Shown here: positions 4,902-36,447 of the stretch, piece after piece
Position numbering within the stretch: position 1 is the first letter of the stretch
How the letters are laid out: every line of letters starts with the position of its first letter
NCBI RefSeq assembly: GCF_022899935.1
Contig: NZ_JALJCJ010000006.1
Coordinates: 310,001 to 374,000, forward strand
Origin: Shinella curvata
Lineage (GTDB): Bacteria > Pseudomonadota > Alphaproteobacteria > Rhizobiales > Rhizobiaceae
Direction: 5' to 3'
Length of the DNA: 64,000 bases
The notes under the pieces: generated by a model
The model's input: the letters and a program-made list of their open reading frames with translations, nothing else
What the model was told of the DNA's origin: nothing
The model's database searches: none
Translations under genes and position numbers: made by a program

Positions 4902-7148
4902 ATGCGCATCACCGAAAACTTCAATGGCAACTGGCTCTTCCGCCACGGTTTCGACGCCGCCCGCGCGGGCGTGGTGCAGGAGGGCGAGACCGTGCGCCTG
5001 CCGCACAGCGCCATCGAGCTGCCCTACAATTATTTCGACGAGACGGAATACCAGAAGCCCTTCACCTACCAGAAGGTGCTCGACTGGCGCCCGGATTTCG
5101 AGGGCCGGGAAGTCTCGCTGGTCTTCGATGCCGCCATGGCCGACAGCGTGGTCTATCTCAACGGCCGCGAAATCATCGCTCACAAGGACGGCTACACGCC
5201 CTTCGAAGCACGCCTGACGCCGCATCTGAAGCAGGGTGAAAACCTGATCACGGTGAAGATCGACGGCTCCGAAAACCCGGAAATTCCGCCCTTCGGCGGC
5301 CAGATCGACTATCTCTGCTATGCAGGTATCTACCGCGACGTCTGGCTCAAGGTGACGAGCCCCGTCTCCATCGCCAATGTGAAGATCGAGACGCCGGATG
5401 CGCTGGCCGACGAAAAGACCGTCACCGCCCGCGTCTTCCTCGCCAATCCGCAGGGCCTTGCCGTGTCCGGCACGCTCGATGCGAAAATCCGTCGCAAGGG
5501 CGGCGGCGATGTCGCGGCCACCTCTATTGCCATCGATGGCAACGAGGCGATGCTGACCTTCTCCGGCCTCACCGGCCTGGACCTCTGGGATATCGATAAT
5601 CCCGCCCTCTACGCGCTTTCGCTGAAGCTCACGACCGATGGCGGCGACGACGTGCTGACGCAGCGCTTCGGCTTCCGCACCGCGCAATTCACGCCGGATG
5701 GTTTCCTGCTCAACGGCCGGCCGCTGAAGCTGCGCGGCCTCAACCGCCACCAGGCCTGGCCGCATACCGGCTACGCCATGGGCCGGCGCGCGCAGGAGAA
5801 GGATGCCGACATCCTGAAATACGACCTCGCCTGCAACATCGTGCGCACGTCACATTATCCGCAGTCGAAATGGTTCATCGAGCGCTGCGACGAGATCGGC
5901 CTGCTCTGCTTCGAGGAAATCCCCGGCTGGCAGCATATCGGCGGCGAGACCTGGCAACAGGAGTCCATCGAAAACGTGCGCCGGATGATCGAGCGCGACT
6001 GGAACCATCCGTCGATCATCATCTGGGGCGTGCGCATCAACGAGAGCCAGGACAACCACGACTTCTACGCCGAGACGAACCGCCTCGCCCGCGAGCTCGA
6101 CCCGACGCGCCAGACAGGCGGCGTGCGCTTCATCACCAATTCGGAGATGCTCGAAGACGTCTACACGATGAACGACTTCATCCTGGGCCAGGAGGAAATG
6201 CCCGGCAACAATCGCGGCCGCGTCGTGCTGCGCGACCGGGTGGAGACGACCGGCATCACCAAGCCCATCCCCTACATGATCACCGAATATAACGGCCACA
6301 TGTACCCGACCAAGCGCTTCGACCAGGAACAGCGCCAGGCCGAGCACGTCACGCGCCACCTCTTGATCCTCAACGCAGTTGCCGGCGACAGCGACATTTC
6401 CGGCTCCACCGGCTGGTGCATGTTCGACTATAACACGCACAAGGATTTCGGCTCCGGCGACCGCGTCTGCTATCACGGCGTGCTCGACATGTACCGCATC
6501 CCGAAATTCGCGGCCTATGTCTATGCCTCGCAGGGCGATCCGGCGGACAAGGTCGTCATGCAGCCCGTGACCTTCTGGGCGCGCGGCGAGCGCAATATCG
6601 GTGGCGTGCTGCCACTGATCATTCTCACCAACTGCGACTATGTCGAGGTGAAGTTCGGCGAATGGCCGGCCAAGCGCGTCTATCCGGACAAGGAGAACTA
6701 TCCGCATCTGGCGCACCCGCCCGTCGTGCTCGATTTGCGCTCCGTCACGCCGGAGGAATTCGGCACCTGGGGCCGCGTCTGGCGCGAAGGCACCTTCACC
6801 GGCTATGTCGACGGCAAGGCGGTGACCACCATGACGCTGCCGGCCGATCCGGTGCCGACAACGCTCGAAGTCGTGGCCGACGACACGGCGCTGCGCGCCG
6901 GCGAGAAGGATGCGGTGCGCGTCGTCGTGCGCGTGCTCGACCAGTGCGGCAATCTTCTGGCCTATTTCGAGGAGCCCGTATCGCTTGTGCTCTCGGGCCC
7001 CGGCCGTATCATCGGCCCGGTCGAACACACGCTGAAGGGCGGCGCGACCGGCTTTTGGGTGGAGGCCGGCGACGAGAAGGGCAAGCTCTACCTGACCGCC
7101 TCGACCCGTCGCCTGCTGCCGCAGTCCATCACCTTCACCGTCAGCTGA
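4902..7148 (+). CDS. GH2 beta-galactosidase-type glycoside hydrolase
   Basis: 748 residues, no signal peptide, so cytoplasmic. The order is an N-terminal sugar-binding domain, an immunoglobulin-like domain, then the TIM barrel, followed by about 200 residues of C-terminal beta domains. The acid/base glutamate is E381 in VRINES and the likely nucleophile is E462 in MITEYNGH, both in GH2 positions. The barrel entry LRGLNRHQAWPHTG is a GH2 hallmark. It probably hydrolyses the galactoside imported by the neighbouring ABC system; other GH2 activities (beta-glucuronidase, beta-mannosidase) cannot be excluded. No neighbour codes for a second beta-galactosidase. Confidence 0.83.
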   Translation: MRITENFNGNWLFRHGFDAARAGVVQEGETVRLPHSAIELPYNYFDETEYQKPFTYQKVLDWRPDFEGREVSLVFDAAMADSVVYLNGREIIAHKDGYTPFEARLTPHLKQGENLITVKIDGSENPEIPPFGGQIDYLCYAGIYRDVWLKVTSPVSIANVKIETPDALADEKTVTARVFLANPQGLAVSGTLDAKIRRKGGGDVAATSIAIDGNEAMLTFSGLTGLDLWDIDNPALYALSLKLTTDGGDDVLTQRFGFRTAQFTPDGFLLNGRPLKLRGLNRHQAWPHTGYAMGRRAQEKDADILKYDLACNIVRTSHYPQSKWFIERCDEIGLLCFEEIPGWQHIGGETWQQESIENVRRMIERDWNHPSIIIWGVRINESQDNHDFYAETNRLARELDPTRQTGGVRFITNSEMLEDVYTMNDFILGQEEMPGNNRGRVVLRDRVETTGITKPIPYMITEYNGHMYPTKRFDQEQRQAEHVTRHLLILNAVAGDSDISGSTGWCMFDYNTHKDFGSGDRVCYHGVLDMYRIPKFAAYVYASQGDPADKVVMQPVTFWARGERNIGGVLPLIILTNCDYVEVKFGEWPAKRVYPDKENYPHLAHPPVVLDLRSVTPEEFGTWGRVWREGTFTGYVDGKAVTTMTLPADPVPTTLEVVADDTALRAGEKDAVRVVVRVLDQCGNLLAYFEEPVSLVLSGPGRIIGPVEHTLKGGATGFWVEAGDEKGKLYLTASTRRLLPQSITFTVS

Positions 7149-7158
7149 GGTTTAGCCC

Positions 7159-8247
7159 ATGGCCGATGTTCGCCTCACCGATATTCGCAAGCGTTTCGGC
7201 TCCCTTGAGATCATCAAGGGCGTCGACCTCTCGATCACGACGGGTGAATTCGTCGTTTTCGTCGGCCCCTCGGGCTGCGGAAAATCGACGCTGCTGCGCA
7301 TGATCGCCGGCCTGGAGGATATTTCTTCAGGCGAACTCACGATCGGCGGCACGGTCATGAACGATGTCGATCCGTCGAAGCGCGGCATCGCCATGGTGTT
7401 CCAGTCCTATGCGCTCTATCCGCATATGACCGTGCGCGAGAACATGGGCTTCGCGCTGAAATTCGCCGGCATGGCGAAGGAAGAGATCGAGCGGCGCGTC
7501 AATGACGCCGCCCGTATCCTCGAACTCGGCCCGCTGATGGAGCGCAAGCCGAAAGCCCTCTCCGGCGGCCAGCGCCAGCGCGTCGCCATCGGCCGCGCCA
7601 TCGTACGCAATCCCGATGTCTTCCTCTTCGACGAGCCATTGTCGAACCTCGACGCGGAGCTGCGCGTGCACATGCGCGTCGAGATCGCCAAGCTGCACAA
7701 GGCGCTGAAATCGACCATCATCTACGTGACGCACGATCAGGTCGAGGCGATGACACTCGCCGACAAGATCGTCGTGCTGCGCGCCGGCATCGTCGAGCAG
7801 GTCGGCGCTCCGCTCGATCTCTACGACGACCCCAACAATACATTCGTCGCAGGCTTCATCGGCTCGCCGCGCATGAACTTTTTGAACGCCCGCGTGATCT
7901 CCAGTGAGGCGGGATACATCACGGTCGCCTTGGCCAGCCAGCCCGACGTGAAACTCAGCCTCTCCGCCCAGTCGAGCGCGGCAAAGCCCGGTGACGAGGT
8001 AAGCCTCGGCGTTCGCCCGGAGCATTTCCGGCCTGCCGGCCAGGGCGATGCGGATCTCGTTCTCGATGTCGACGTGGCCGAACATCTCGGCAATACGAGC
8101 TATGTCTACGCCAATGTCTCGCCCGACGAGCGCATCATCGTCGAGCACGAGGGTTTTCGCAGTGCCGACAGCCGCGACCGGCTCACCGTCGGCGTGTCCG
8201 CCGGCTCATCCTTCCTCTTCGACAGCGCGGGCGTTCGCATCCGCTGA
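7159..8247 (+). CDS. Sugar ABC transporter ATPase (UgpC/MsmK-like)
   Basis: 362 residues. Walker A GPSGCGKST is at residues 36-44, the signature is LSGGQRQRV, Walker B is VFLFDEPLSNLD, and the H-loop is YVTHDQVEAM. The C-terminal OB-fold regulatory domain (SLGVRPEHFRP) is typical of CUT1 ATPases such as MalK and UgpC. It starts ten bases after the GH2 gene and closes the galactoside operon. Such ATPases often serve several CUT1 transporters, so it may also energise systems elsewhere. Confidence 0.92.
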   Translation: MADVRLTDIRKRFGSLEIIKGVDLSITTGEFVVFVGPSGCGKSTLLRMIAGLEDISSGELTIGGTVMNDVDPSKRGIAMVFQSYALYPHMTVRENMGFALKFAGMAKEEIERRVNDAARILELGPLMERKPKALSGGQRQRVAIGRAIVRNPDVFLFDEPLSNLDAELRVHMRVEIAKLHKALKSTIIYVTHDQVEAMTLADKIVVLRAGIVEQVGAPLDLYDDPNNTFVAGFIGSPRMNFLNARVISSEAGYITVALASQPDVKLSLSAQSSAAKPGDEVSLGVRPEHFRPAGQGDADLVLDVDVAEHLGNTSYVYANVSPDERIIVEHEGFRSADSRDRLTVGVSAGSSFLFDSAGVRIR

Positions 8248-33415: not shown

Positions 33416-36109
33416 TCATTTCGCCTTGCCGGGCCTTGCGGTCTCGCCCGCAGGAAAGCGGATGACGACGCGCGTGCCACGCTTCTTCACCGCCGGGCTT
33501 TCGGCATGAACCTTGCCGCCCATCGCCTCGACGAAGCCGCGGGCGATGGAGAGGCCGAGACCCGTGCCGGGCGAGCGGCCGTCCGGCTTGCCGCGCCGGT
33601 AGAATTTTTCGAATATGCGGTCGATTTCTGCGGGTGCAACACCCTTGCCGAGATCGGTGACGGAGATCAGCACGTCCTGCCCGTCGCGCCGCGCGTAAAC
33701 ATTGACCGGCTCCTCACCGCCGAACTTCACGGCATTGTCCAGCAGGTTGAAGAGCACCTGACCGAGCAGCACCGCGTCACCCTCGATCATCGGCAGGTCC
33801 GGCGCGATGCCCGTTTCGATCGTGGTTCCCGGGAAATATTTTCGCGCGCGCTCGACGGCGGCGTGAATAACGTCGGAGACGTCGATCCCCTCGCGCCTTG
33901 GCTTCAGCGTGCCCGCTTCGATACGCGTCATGTCAAGCAGATTGGAGACGAAGAGGCTCATGCGGCCTCCTTCCTCCTCGATGGACAGGAGGAGATCGTC
34001 TCGGCCTCGCGCTTCCATCTCGTCACCGGCCTGACGGAGGCTGGCGGCGGCGCTCATGATGGTAGATAGCGGGGTGCGCAGATCGTTCGAGATCGACGAC
34101 AGCAGGGCTTCGCGATAGCGCTCGCCCTCCAGCCGCGCCGCCTGCCGCACGCTTTCCTCCGACAACCGTGCACGGTCGAGCGCAATGGCCGTCTGGTCGA
34201 GAATGGCCGAAAGCGCCCGCTCGGCATTCGGTCCCAATTGCTCTTCGCTCACCTGGATGCCGCAAACGCCGACGAGGCCGTGCGGTCCCATCAACGGGCG
34301 GAATTCAAAGCGGCTGTTCGGCAGCGTACCGGTTCCCGCGCCCGCCACCTCCTGCTTGTCTCGGGTCCATCGTGCCGCCGTAAAATCGGTGACGTCGAGC
34401 TCGGTATCCGGCGGCCAGACGGCGGAAACCTTGAGATCGGTCTTGTCGGGCATCAACAGCACGATGTTGCGCTTGAGGCTGGCCTGGAGATGGGAGACCG
34501 CAAGCCAGATCGCATCGTCCGCCTTGTCCGCCGTCGAAAGCTTTCGCGAGAACTCGTAGAGCGATTGCAGCGCGGTGGCGCGCACGCGGGCGACCTCCGC
34601 CTGTTCCTTGATGCGCGAGGCAAAACCACCGGCGATGATCGCCACCGACAGGAAGACGACCAGCGCAAACACCTCGTGCGGCGCCGTTATCGTGAAGGTG
34701 TGCAGCGGATCGATGAAAAGGAAGTTATAGGCGAGCGCCGAAAGAACCGCCGAAATGAACGCAGAGACATAGCCCCCAAGCACGGCGGAGCCGAGAACGG
34801 CGAGCAGGAAGAGCAGTGAAATGTTCGGCAATTCAGCGAACACGAAGACCAGCTTGCCGACAAGCGCGGTCGCACCGGTGAGCGCTGCGGCAATCAGCGC
34901 CGACTGCCTGTAGGAGGCAATGCCCGGCAGCGCTAAACGCGCTGGCGCGGGTGGCTTTTCCTTCTTCTCCGGGGTCACGAAATAGACGCCGAGGCCGGCG
35001 GCCCGGCGCGACAGCGCATCGGGCAGCGACGGCAGGAGAAATTTACGCCAGCCGCGGTTGCCTCGCGCGCCGATGACGATCTGGGTCGCATGTTCGCGGC
35101 GGGCAAGTTTCAGGATTTCCTCGACGAAATCGGTGCCGACGATCCGGCGCGTCTCTGCTCCAAGCTGTTCGGCGAGCCTAAACAGCGCTTCCATGCGCTG
35201 CAGACGCGCGGTCGTCTCGGACTCCCGGTCGGCCCGTTCGATGGAAACGACGATCCAGGGAGCATTGAGGCCGGAGGCAAGTCGGCTTGCCACGCGCAGG
35301 ACCTTTTCCGAAAGATCGTCCGGCCCGATACAGACGAGAAGCCGCTCGCCGCTCGCCCAGGGGCCTTCGATGGCGTTCTGCTTGAGGTAATCGACCACCT
35401 GTTCATCCACCCGGTCGGCGGTGCGGCGCAGGGCAAGCTCGCGCAGCGCCGTCAGGTTGCCGAGGCGGAAAAAGCGATCGACGGCGCGGCTGGCGCTCTC
35501 GGGCAGGTATACCTTGCCGTCCTTGAGGCGGTCGATCAACTCGGTCGGCGGCAAATCCACGAGTAGAACCTCATCGGCCTTCTTCAACACCACGTCGGGA
35601 ACGCGTTCGCGCACCGTCACGCCGGTGATCTGCGCCACGACGTCGGACAAACTTTCCAGATGCTGGATGTTGAGCGCGGTCCAAACGTCGATGCCCGCCG
35701 CGATCAGCTCCTCGATATCCTGATAGCGCTTCGGATGGCGGCTGCCTTCCGTATTGGAATGGGCCAGTTCATCGACAAGAACAATTTTCGGACGCCGCGC
35801 AAGCGCACCGTCGAGATCGAACTCCTCCAGCGTCCTGCCGCGATGTTCGACAAGCGCACGCGGCAACACTTCCAGACCTTCGACAAGAGCTGCCGTCTCG
35901 CCCCGCCCGTGGGTCTCCACGAGACCGACGACAACATCCACGCCCTCGGCCTTCAGGCGCCCGGCGCGTGTCAGCATGGCGTAGGTCTTGCCCACACCCG
36001 GCGCAGCCCCGAGGAAAACGGTCAACTTGCCCCTGCGGTCCTTCTCCGCCAGGGCCAGCAATGCATCGGGATCGGGCCTCAGACCGTCGTCGCGCTCGTT
36101 GTCCGTCAT
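33416..36109 (-). CDS. KdpD-like sensor protein with Asn in place of the phospho-acceptor His
   Basis: 897 residues. Order: KdpD domain with Walker A GAAPGVGKT (residues 34-42); universal-stress-like domain (LLVCIGPDDLSEKVLRVASR); four membrane helices (DUF4118) near 400-500; GAF-like segment; dimerisation helix; HATPase domain with N-box NLLDNAVKFG and GTGLGLSIARGF. The H-box reads SSISNDLRTPLS: codon AAC (34085-34087) gives Asn675 where His (E. coli His673) is phosphorylated. No kdpE, kdpF, kdpA, kdpB or kdpC is adjacent. ATG 36109 is preferred over 36121, whose ribosome site falls in a hairpin (36125-36143). It may be signalling-dead, or act by nucleotide binding or partner kinases. Confidence 0.85.
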   Translation of the reverse strand: MTDNERDDGLRPDPDALLALAEKDRRGKLTVFLGAAPGVGKTYAMLTRAGRLKAEGVDVVVGLVETHGRGETAALVEGLEVLPRALVEHRGRTLEEFDLDGALARRPKIVLVDELAHSNTEGSRHPKRYQDIEELIAAGIDVWTALNIQHLESLSDVVAQITGVTVRERVPDVVLKKADEVLLVDLPPTELIDRLKDGKVYLPESASRAVDRFFRLGNLTALRELALRRTADRVDEQVVDYLKQNAIEGPWASGERLLVCIGPDDLSEKVLRVASRLASGLNAPWIVVSIERADRESETTARLQRMEALFRLAEQLGAETRRIVGTDFVEEILKLARREHATQIVIGARGNRGWRKFLLPSLPDALSRRAAGLGVYFVTPEKKEKPPAPARLALPGIASYRQSALIAAALTGATALVGKLVFVFAELPNISLLFLLAVLGSAVLGGYVSAFISAVLSALAYNFLFIDPLHTFTITAPHEVFALVVFLSVAIIAGGFASRIKEQAEVARVRATALQSLYEFSRKLSTADKADDAIWLAVSHLQASLKRNIVLLMPDKTDLKVSAVWPPDTELDVTDFTAARWTRDKQEVAGAGTGTLPNSRFEFRPLMGPHGLVGVCGIQVSEEQLGPNAERALSAILDQTAIALDRARLSEESVRQAARLEGERYREALLSSISNDLRTPLSTIMSAAASLRQAGDEMEARGRDDLLLSIEEEGGRMSLFVSNLLDMTRIEAGTLKPRREGIDVSDVIHAAVERARKYFPGTTIETGIAPDLPMIEGDAVLLGQVLFNLLDNAVKFGGEEPVNVYARRDGQDVLISVTDLGKGVAPAEIDRIFEKFYRRGKPDGRSPGTGLGLSIARGFVEAMGGKVHAESPAVKKRGTRVVIRFPAGETARPGKAK

Positions 36110-36447
36110 ACTCACTCTCATGGTCCGCGCGTAGAGAGCGCGGGGTTTAGCTTCAATATGTCCACCGGCCATTGACCGATGGCTCCCAAAGGACGGCTTT
36201 CTATCGATTTTCGGTACGGTCCGCCATCTCCGTTTCTGCGGCCTCCGTCGCCTTCGCGGCCCACTCGTCCGCAGGCGCGCAAAAAGCCGTGGAGCGCGAG
36301 GAGAGGTGCAGGATACCGCGGCAGCATTACAGGTCTCGAGGGAGATCGTGGAGGGGGCCGCTCAGGAACAAGGGAAGGAAAGCAGACAGCCTGCCGGTCA
36401 GGTCGGGGTCGTGGCGACCGCGTCCCGTTCACCGATGCATGCCGGCA
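36110..36447. other. 338-base gap without a gene
   Basis: No convincing coding frame, kdp remnant or repeat is seen. The only structure is a hairpin CCGCGC/GCGCGG at 36125-36143, just upstream of the KdpD-like start. The gap must contain the promoter of that gene. Confidence 0.4.

Follow-up and report, generated by a model that had tools for sequence, protein, structure and literature searches.

The KdpD protein of E. coli has been described as a tandem serine/histidine kinase, and Silberberg et al. (2024; PMC11018627) reported atypical serine-kinase activity in its N-terminal domain, with Ser162 of KdpB as the residue phosphorylated at high K+. In E. coli, according to the same report, phosphorylation of KdpB persists with the H673A form of KdpD and also upon deletion of the DHp-CA region, and the serine kinase requires the Walker A motif, the Walker B residues D109 and E110, and W39/R190 (PMC11018627). 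KdpD proteins that lack the histidine-kinase domains are also described there, mostly from species that have no KdpE. Full-length KdpD proteins in which the phospho-acceptor histidine is replaced were not described among the literature matches listed, in a search that covered mostly literature outside subscription.

One KdpD of this latter kind is encoded in the window, by which we mean the whole 64-kb stretch of DNA that was analysed, and the features of its locus are summarized in Table 1. The original prediction, made from this sequence, was that the protein has Asn at the acceptor position, that its Walker A motif, stress-protein domain, membrane helices and ATPase boxes are intact, and that neither kdpE nor kdpFABC is adjacent; all of these statements hold. 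The H-box reads SSISNDLRTPLS, with residue 675 encoded by AAC (34087-34085, minus strand). The domains KdpD, Usp, DUF4118, HisKA and HATPase_c were detected by Pfam above the cut-off, in the order characteristic of the family, together with a sub-threshold match to GAF, and the Walker A, Walker B, N, G1 and G2 boxes are all intact. Hence, of the features of a working histidine kinase the three ATP boxes are present and the acceptor His is absent. The Walker motifs and R194 of the KdpD domain correspond in position to the serine-kinase residues of E. coli KdpD. An in-frame ATG at 36172, upstream of the start given in Table 1, would extend the protein to 918 aa. In tblastn searches of the whole 64-kb window at E 1e-3, kdpD was the only kdp gene detected, with no match for kdpF, A, B, C or E. 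A promoter scan, which says little for this organism, found none upstream of kdpD.

Table 1. Features of the kdpD locus, in window positions.
Feature	Position	Strand	Remarks
Orphan kdpD, 897 aa	33416..36109	(-)	Translation, ORF list, Pfam
Codon AAC, Asn675, phospho-acceptor position	34085..34087	(-)	Common to L003
KdpD domain, residues 25-234	35408..36037	(-)	Walker A 34-42; Walker B D113/E114; R194
DHp domain, residues 656-735	33905..34144	(-)	N675; near-invariant G686 and R719 changed
HATPase_c domain, residues 777-887	33449..33781	(-)	N, G1, G2 boxes intact
kdpC decayed 3' stump, approximate limits	36118..36275	(-)	DNA alignment with L003 and intact kdpC of L004

The acceptor residue was compared across 80 fetched species loci, where it is His in 78, Asn in one (Shinella sp. 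CPCC 101442, locus L003) and Gln in one (Ensifer sp. BR816, L072). The KdpD of L003 is 95% identical to that of the window and has the same Asn, encoded by the same AAC codon; thus N675 is common to a clade of two species, and the possibility raised in the original prediction that it could be a lone private change does not stand. The KdpD of Shinella sp. WSJ-2 (L004), which is 92% identical, has His and lies within an intact kdpFABCDE operon. At six of the 80 loci no kdpA, kdpB or kdpE was present within a flank of up to 8 kb, and both of the non-His proteins are among these six; at the remaining 74 loci the residue is His in all cases.

The window kdpD, which is nested in the tree among the KdpD proteins of the native Shinella Kdp system (type-1), is the leftover of a deleted native Shinella kdpFABCDE operon. 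The gap upstream of it contains a kdpC stump that was aligned at the DNA level to the 3' end of kdpC from WSJ-2. Such a stump remains in both of the genomes with Asn and its decay differs between the two: that of L003 was recognised by tblastn, in two frames, and that of the window gave no tblastn match at E 1e-3 because it is too decayed. The window genome also contains, on contig C14, a second and divergent kdpABCDE system (type-2), and with it the second kdpD beside a kdpE that the original prediction had envisaged. The KdpD of this system (43-44% identical) retains both histidine-kinase residues, including the His, and serine-kinase residues, and its KdpB carries a TGES motif. The only KdpE detected in the window genome at E 1e-45 or better is that of the second system, with 50% identity to the cognate type that was lost.

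In a sample of 21 genomes from the genus, including that of the window, 11 have the type-1 pump and no type-2 KdpD, and six have type-2 Kdp without the type-1 pump. Five of the latter keep an orphan type-1 KdpD, and in the sixth (G004) about the last 90 codons of type-1 kdpD were found. In another genome (S. fusca) an orphan KdpD is present without KdpA, and three have neither type. The two pumps are thus mutually exclusive in these Shinella genomes (11 with type-1, six with type-2 and four without KdpA), and the type-1 pump seems to have been replaced, with the old sensor left behind. In S. fusca and one further genome with an orphan KdpD (G362), no KdpA, KdpC or KdpE was found, the last of these at E 1e-45.

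Similar orphan KdpD proteins are found elsewhere in the Rhizobiaceae. We assembled 13 of them (six from Shinella, four from Ensifer/Sinorhizobium and three from one other Rhizobiaceae genus), and these stem from about 5-6 orphanings: six changes to the orphan state, at least five of them on well-supported branches, were observed in a tree built without the DHp columns, which is a quick tree with some long branches, and the count assumes that lost operons were never regained. The orphans were compared with 108 operon-linked KdpD sequences, consisting of 73 from the 80 species loci (six orphans and L052, which has an in-frame stop, were left out; L027, with kdpABC and no kdpE found, was kept) and 35 from plasmid and further-genome loci; 99 were left after removal of near-copies. 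Another 55 type-1 loci were not used, being mostly the same species twice, together with the frameshifted L183 and L186, the truncated L187 and the pump-linked L177 and L180. The H, D and T of the HDxxT motif are present in 48 of these 55, a number that includes broken or truncated KdpD proteins and duplicates of orphans in which His is present; the other seven duplicate the window, L003, L061 and L188 sequences. The frameshifts of L183 and L186 are apparent ones inside otherwise complete kdp operons, and an apparent frameshift was likewise observed in kdpB of Shinella sp. H4-D48 plasmid p1 (L031, 5350-7373), whose operon is otherwise complete. Additionally, a KdpD from a record named Roseateles sp. 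XES5 (Betaproteobacteria; NZ_CP084753.1) branched among those of Shinella, and this record is probably misnamed.

In each of the 13 orphans, the fraction of changed sites is higher in DHp than in any other domain. Of the 32 near-invariant DHp sites, 3-10 are changed in every orphan, in comparison to a mean of 0.24 and a maximum of 2 in the 99 operon-linked sequences (leave-one-out); when relatives of more than 80% identity were left out, the latter mean was 0.38 and the maximum 3, seen in two of the 99. For the 102 near-invariant sites of the KdpD domain, 0-3 are changed in the orphans, and the operon-linked mean is 0.61 (maximum 5). The CA domain shows 19 changes over the 13 orphans (mean 1.5, versus 0.35 when operon-linked), and changes at near-invariant sites of the TM domain are limited to the third group, with four in each of its three orphans. 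The His, Asp or Thr of HDxxT is altered in six of the 13 orphans (Asn twice, Gln once, D-to-E once and T-to-A twice), whereas all three are kept in 108 of 108 operon-linked proteins. R719, an Arg that E. coli KdpD and five type-2 KdpD proteins have as well, is replaced in nine of the 13, by Leu, Gln, Gly or His in different clades. The residues of the atypical serine kinase are conserved in all 13 orphans, viz. Walker A (G-X5-GKT), the Walker B DE pair, and the adenine pair formed by R190 and an aromatic residue, Tyr or Phe, at the position of E. coli W39. Changes on the stem branch leading to the Asn pair affected 8 of 80 residues in DHp and 11 of 788 in the rest of the protein (Fisher p 1.2e-4, a rough value as such tests count related sequences as independent), and after the split of the window and L003 lineages 2 of 80 DHp residues changed on each branch, with no excess; these counts omit 17 ambiguous sites, two of them in DHp. 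A burst of change that then gives way to constraint is more in keeping with altered function than with decay.

The window KdpD is very probably a maintained orphan that is unable to form phospho-histidine, and on chemical grounds its histidine-kinase activity would have been lost. The reading that we prefer goes further. Where a genome had (presumably by acquisition) a divergent second Kdp system, the first would have lost kdpFAB, kdpE and most of kdpC to deletion; loss of KdpE would have released the phosphotransfer function; and the burst of DHp changes, H675N and R719L included, would have abolished it. The remaining protein would have stayed under strong selection, with the serine-kinase half and the K+-sensing membrane part kept, and the orphan could serve as a trans-acting brake on the second-system KdpB, expressed separately from the operon of its target. 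We give about even chances to this chain as a whole, from operon loss and discarding of DHp to retention as a K+-controlled serine kinase, perhaps acting on the second-system KdpB; the serine-kinase activity, expression and substrate of the window protein are predictions from its sequence. The original prediction of a non-canonical role is partly supported, and a serine kinase is the more specific candidate. A decoy for the second KdpD, which was also suggested, is less likely: change was greatest in DHp, the domain that faces the response regulator, and S. fusca and G362 have no KdpA, KdpC or KdpE that could be found.

Several observations bear against the serine-kinase reading or narrow it. 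DHp is not the only changed domain, as changes occur also in CA and TM, and the window KdpD retains the ATP site of CA, for which a protein acting purely as a serine kinase would have no obvious need. The acceptor His itself is lost in only three of the 13 orphans, and hence the others might still act as kinases, now wired to a different regulator. For KdpB, the orphan would be redundant, because the second-system KdpD keeps the residues of both kinases. In S. fusca and G362, where neither a Kdp pump nor KdpE was found, KdpB is excluded as the target, and the orphan, if it is a serine kinase, must there have some other one. That orphan KdpD proteins in general are free-standing, K+-gated membrane serine kinases is rather doubtful; if it were true, KdpD would head a new, pump-independent pathway of serine phosphorylation that was reached repeatedly by shedding the histidine-kinase output.

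A somewhat unlikely alternative, and one compatible with the serine-kinase reading, is that the protein is a pseudo-histidine kinase of the DivL type, whose DHp-CA region no longer transfers phosphate and instead binds another protein and works allosterically; the partner may be PtsN, bound through the GAF domain, or else the second KdpD or a response regulator. Such a role is consistent with the replacement of His alongside intact kinase boxes and with the selection on CA (dN/dS 0.061 between the window and L003). Among solved chains, DivL (4q20) is the best phmmer match of the window DHp (76 aa), with E 2.5e-5, ahead of a KdpD chain (6lgq, E 1.8e-4), and the GAF domain of S. fredii KdpD is reported to bind PtsN1 (PMC9239096). 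However, docking would take place on DHp, and in every orphan this domain has changed more than the others; also, no neighbour gene within about 4.5 kb is common to the orphan clades; neighbours cluster within clades only, as judged by crude ORF picking (some antisense frames were taken) and inspection of ten neighbour proteins by eye. Binding of PtsN alone would also leave the retention of the Walker motifs, which rank with the best-kept parts, without an explanation. The PtsN-contact residue D517 of S. fredii likely corresponds, with uncertain placement, to Glu519 in the window, L003 and operon-linked L004 proteins alike, and it therefore does not discriminate. The specificity positions known for EnvZ (PMC2991266) were used as a lead only, with no claim built upon them.

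We consider it improbable that the protein serves as a phosphatase-only or sequestering modulator of the second-system KdpE. As N675 removes the kinase and D676 and T679 of HDxxT remain, both in the window and in L003, the protein could dephosphorylate or titrate KdpE, and the window genome does have one such regulator. Against this, T679 is lost in L166 and L188, D676 is changed in L061, the replacement of R719 extends to most orphans, and the two orphan genomes named above have no KdpE at E 1e-45.

The claim that a full-length KdpD is kept intact without its acceptor His is borne out by its evolution, for the two Asn proteins are under purifying selection. Between the window and L003 the values are dS 0.378, dN 0.0296 and dN/dS 0.079 (0.069 for the KdpD domain), in comparison to 0.081 for the type-2 KdpD proteins of the same two genomes and 0.067-0.133 for operon-linked Shinella pairs (n=7). 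About 27 nonsense changes would be expected at this dS under a crude neutral model, and none is present. For DHp alone, the two Asn proteins give dN/dS values of 0.139 and 0.174 against WSJ-2, and operon-linked pairs (n=3) give 0 to 0.070. It is thus very improbable that the gene is functionless and on its way to loss, not yet broken. The disappearance of kdpA, B and E, the reduction of kdpC to a stump and the kdpD fragment of G004 are what such decay would leave, and most other orphan pairs are less constrained than that of window and L003 (dN/dS 0.055-0.199: 0.129-0.155 in Ensifer; 0.148, 0.199 and 0.055 for three Shinella pairs); but the low dN/dS accumulated after fixation of Asn and a reading frame without stops in two species led us to reject ongoing decay. 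Lastly, a sequencing or assembly error behind Asn675, for which one base (C to A) would suffice, has a negligible probability and was rejected along with a private change, as the separately recorded L003 has AAC together with R719L and other common changes. Neither of the two outcomes that the original prediction named as refuting it came about.

Some variants elsewhere retain KdpE. At L187 (G170:C7, about 5000-7640), a KdpD that lacks its first ~250 residues, i.e., the serine-kinase domain, lies beside an intact kdpE and behind an integrase-like reading frame (by eye), and no KdpA or KdpC was found in G170. This is the mirror case of the window, in which the histidine-kinase half survived. 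In one Rhizobiaceae genus, kdpD-kdpE pairs without adjacent kdpFABC were observed at L176, L178, L181 and L182, in genomes where another KdpD and a single KdpA are encoded elsewhere; a short kdpC remnant lies at the pair of G168. The KdpD proteins of these four loci have 4-5 DHp changes, and they were kept apart from the orphans because their changes are spread over all domains and their H-box is the same in the pump-linked L177 and L180. A P-type ATPase, of heavy-metal type by eye, lies near L176 and L182. The P-type ATPases near these two loci and L187 were dropped as candidate targets of the serine kinase, since their motif is TGEP or TGET and not TGES.

The two kinases of KdpD, whose presence in a single chain was reported in 2024, seem to have been separated naturally in the orphans. 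The repeated pattern upon loss of KdpE, with DHp most changed and the serine-kinase half kept, provides independent evolutionary support for the serine kinase as the best-conserved role of the protein, and full-length KdpD proteins without the acceptor His offer material for studies of how K+ controls this kinase and of targets besides KdpB.

In comparison with the systems known, the window KdpD has the domain order and all of the serine-kinase residues of the E. coli tandem kinase (PMC11018627); Trp39 of the latter is Tyr in the window protein, as in 101 of the 108 operon-linked KdpD proteins. Unlike E. coli KdpD, it lacks the acceptor His and has no adjacent kdpE or kdpFABC. It resembles the short or C-terminally truncated serine-kinase-only KdpD proteins of the same report in that the histidine-kinase function is missing and the serine-kinase domain is kept. 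In contrast to them, its whole 897-residue chain is kept, with both DHp and CA present and under selection, a substitution removed the acceptor, the gene has no linkage to a pump, and another KdpE is present in the genome. With DivL of Caulobacter, also alphaproteobacterial (Tyr550; PMC4211667), it has in common a full histidine-kinase fold in which the acceptor His is replaced and the other boxes, including those of CA, are intact, whereas DivL has PAS domains, acts in cell-cycle control through DivK and has no link to K+.
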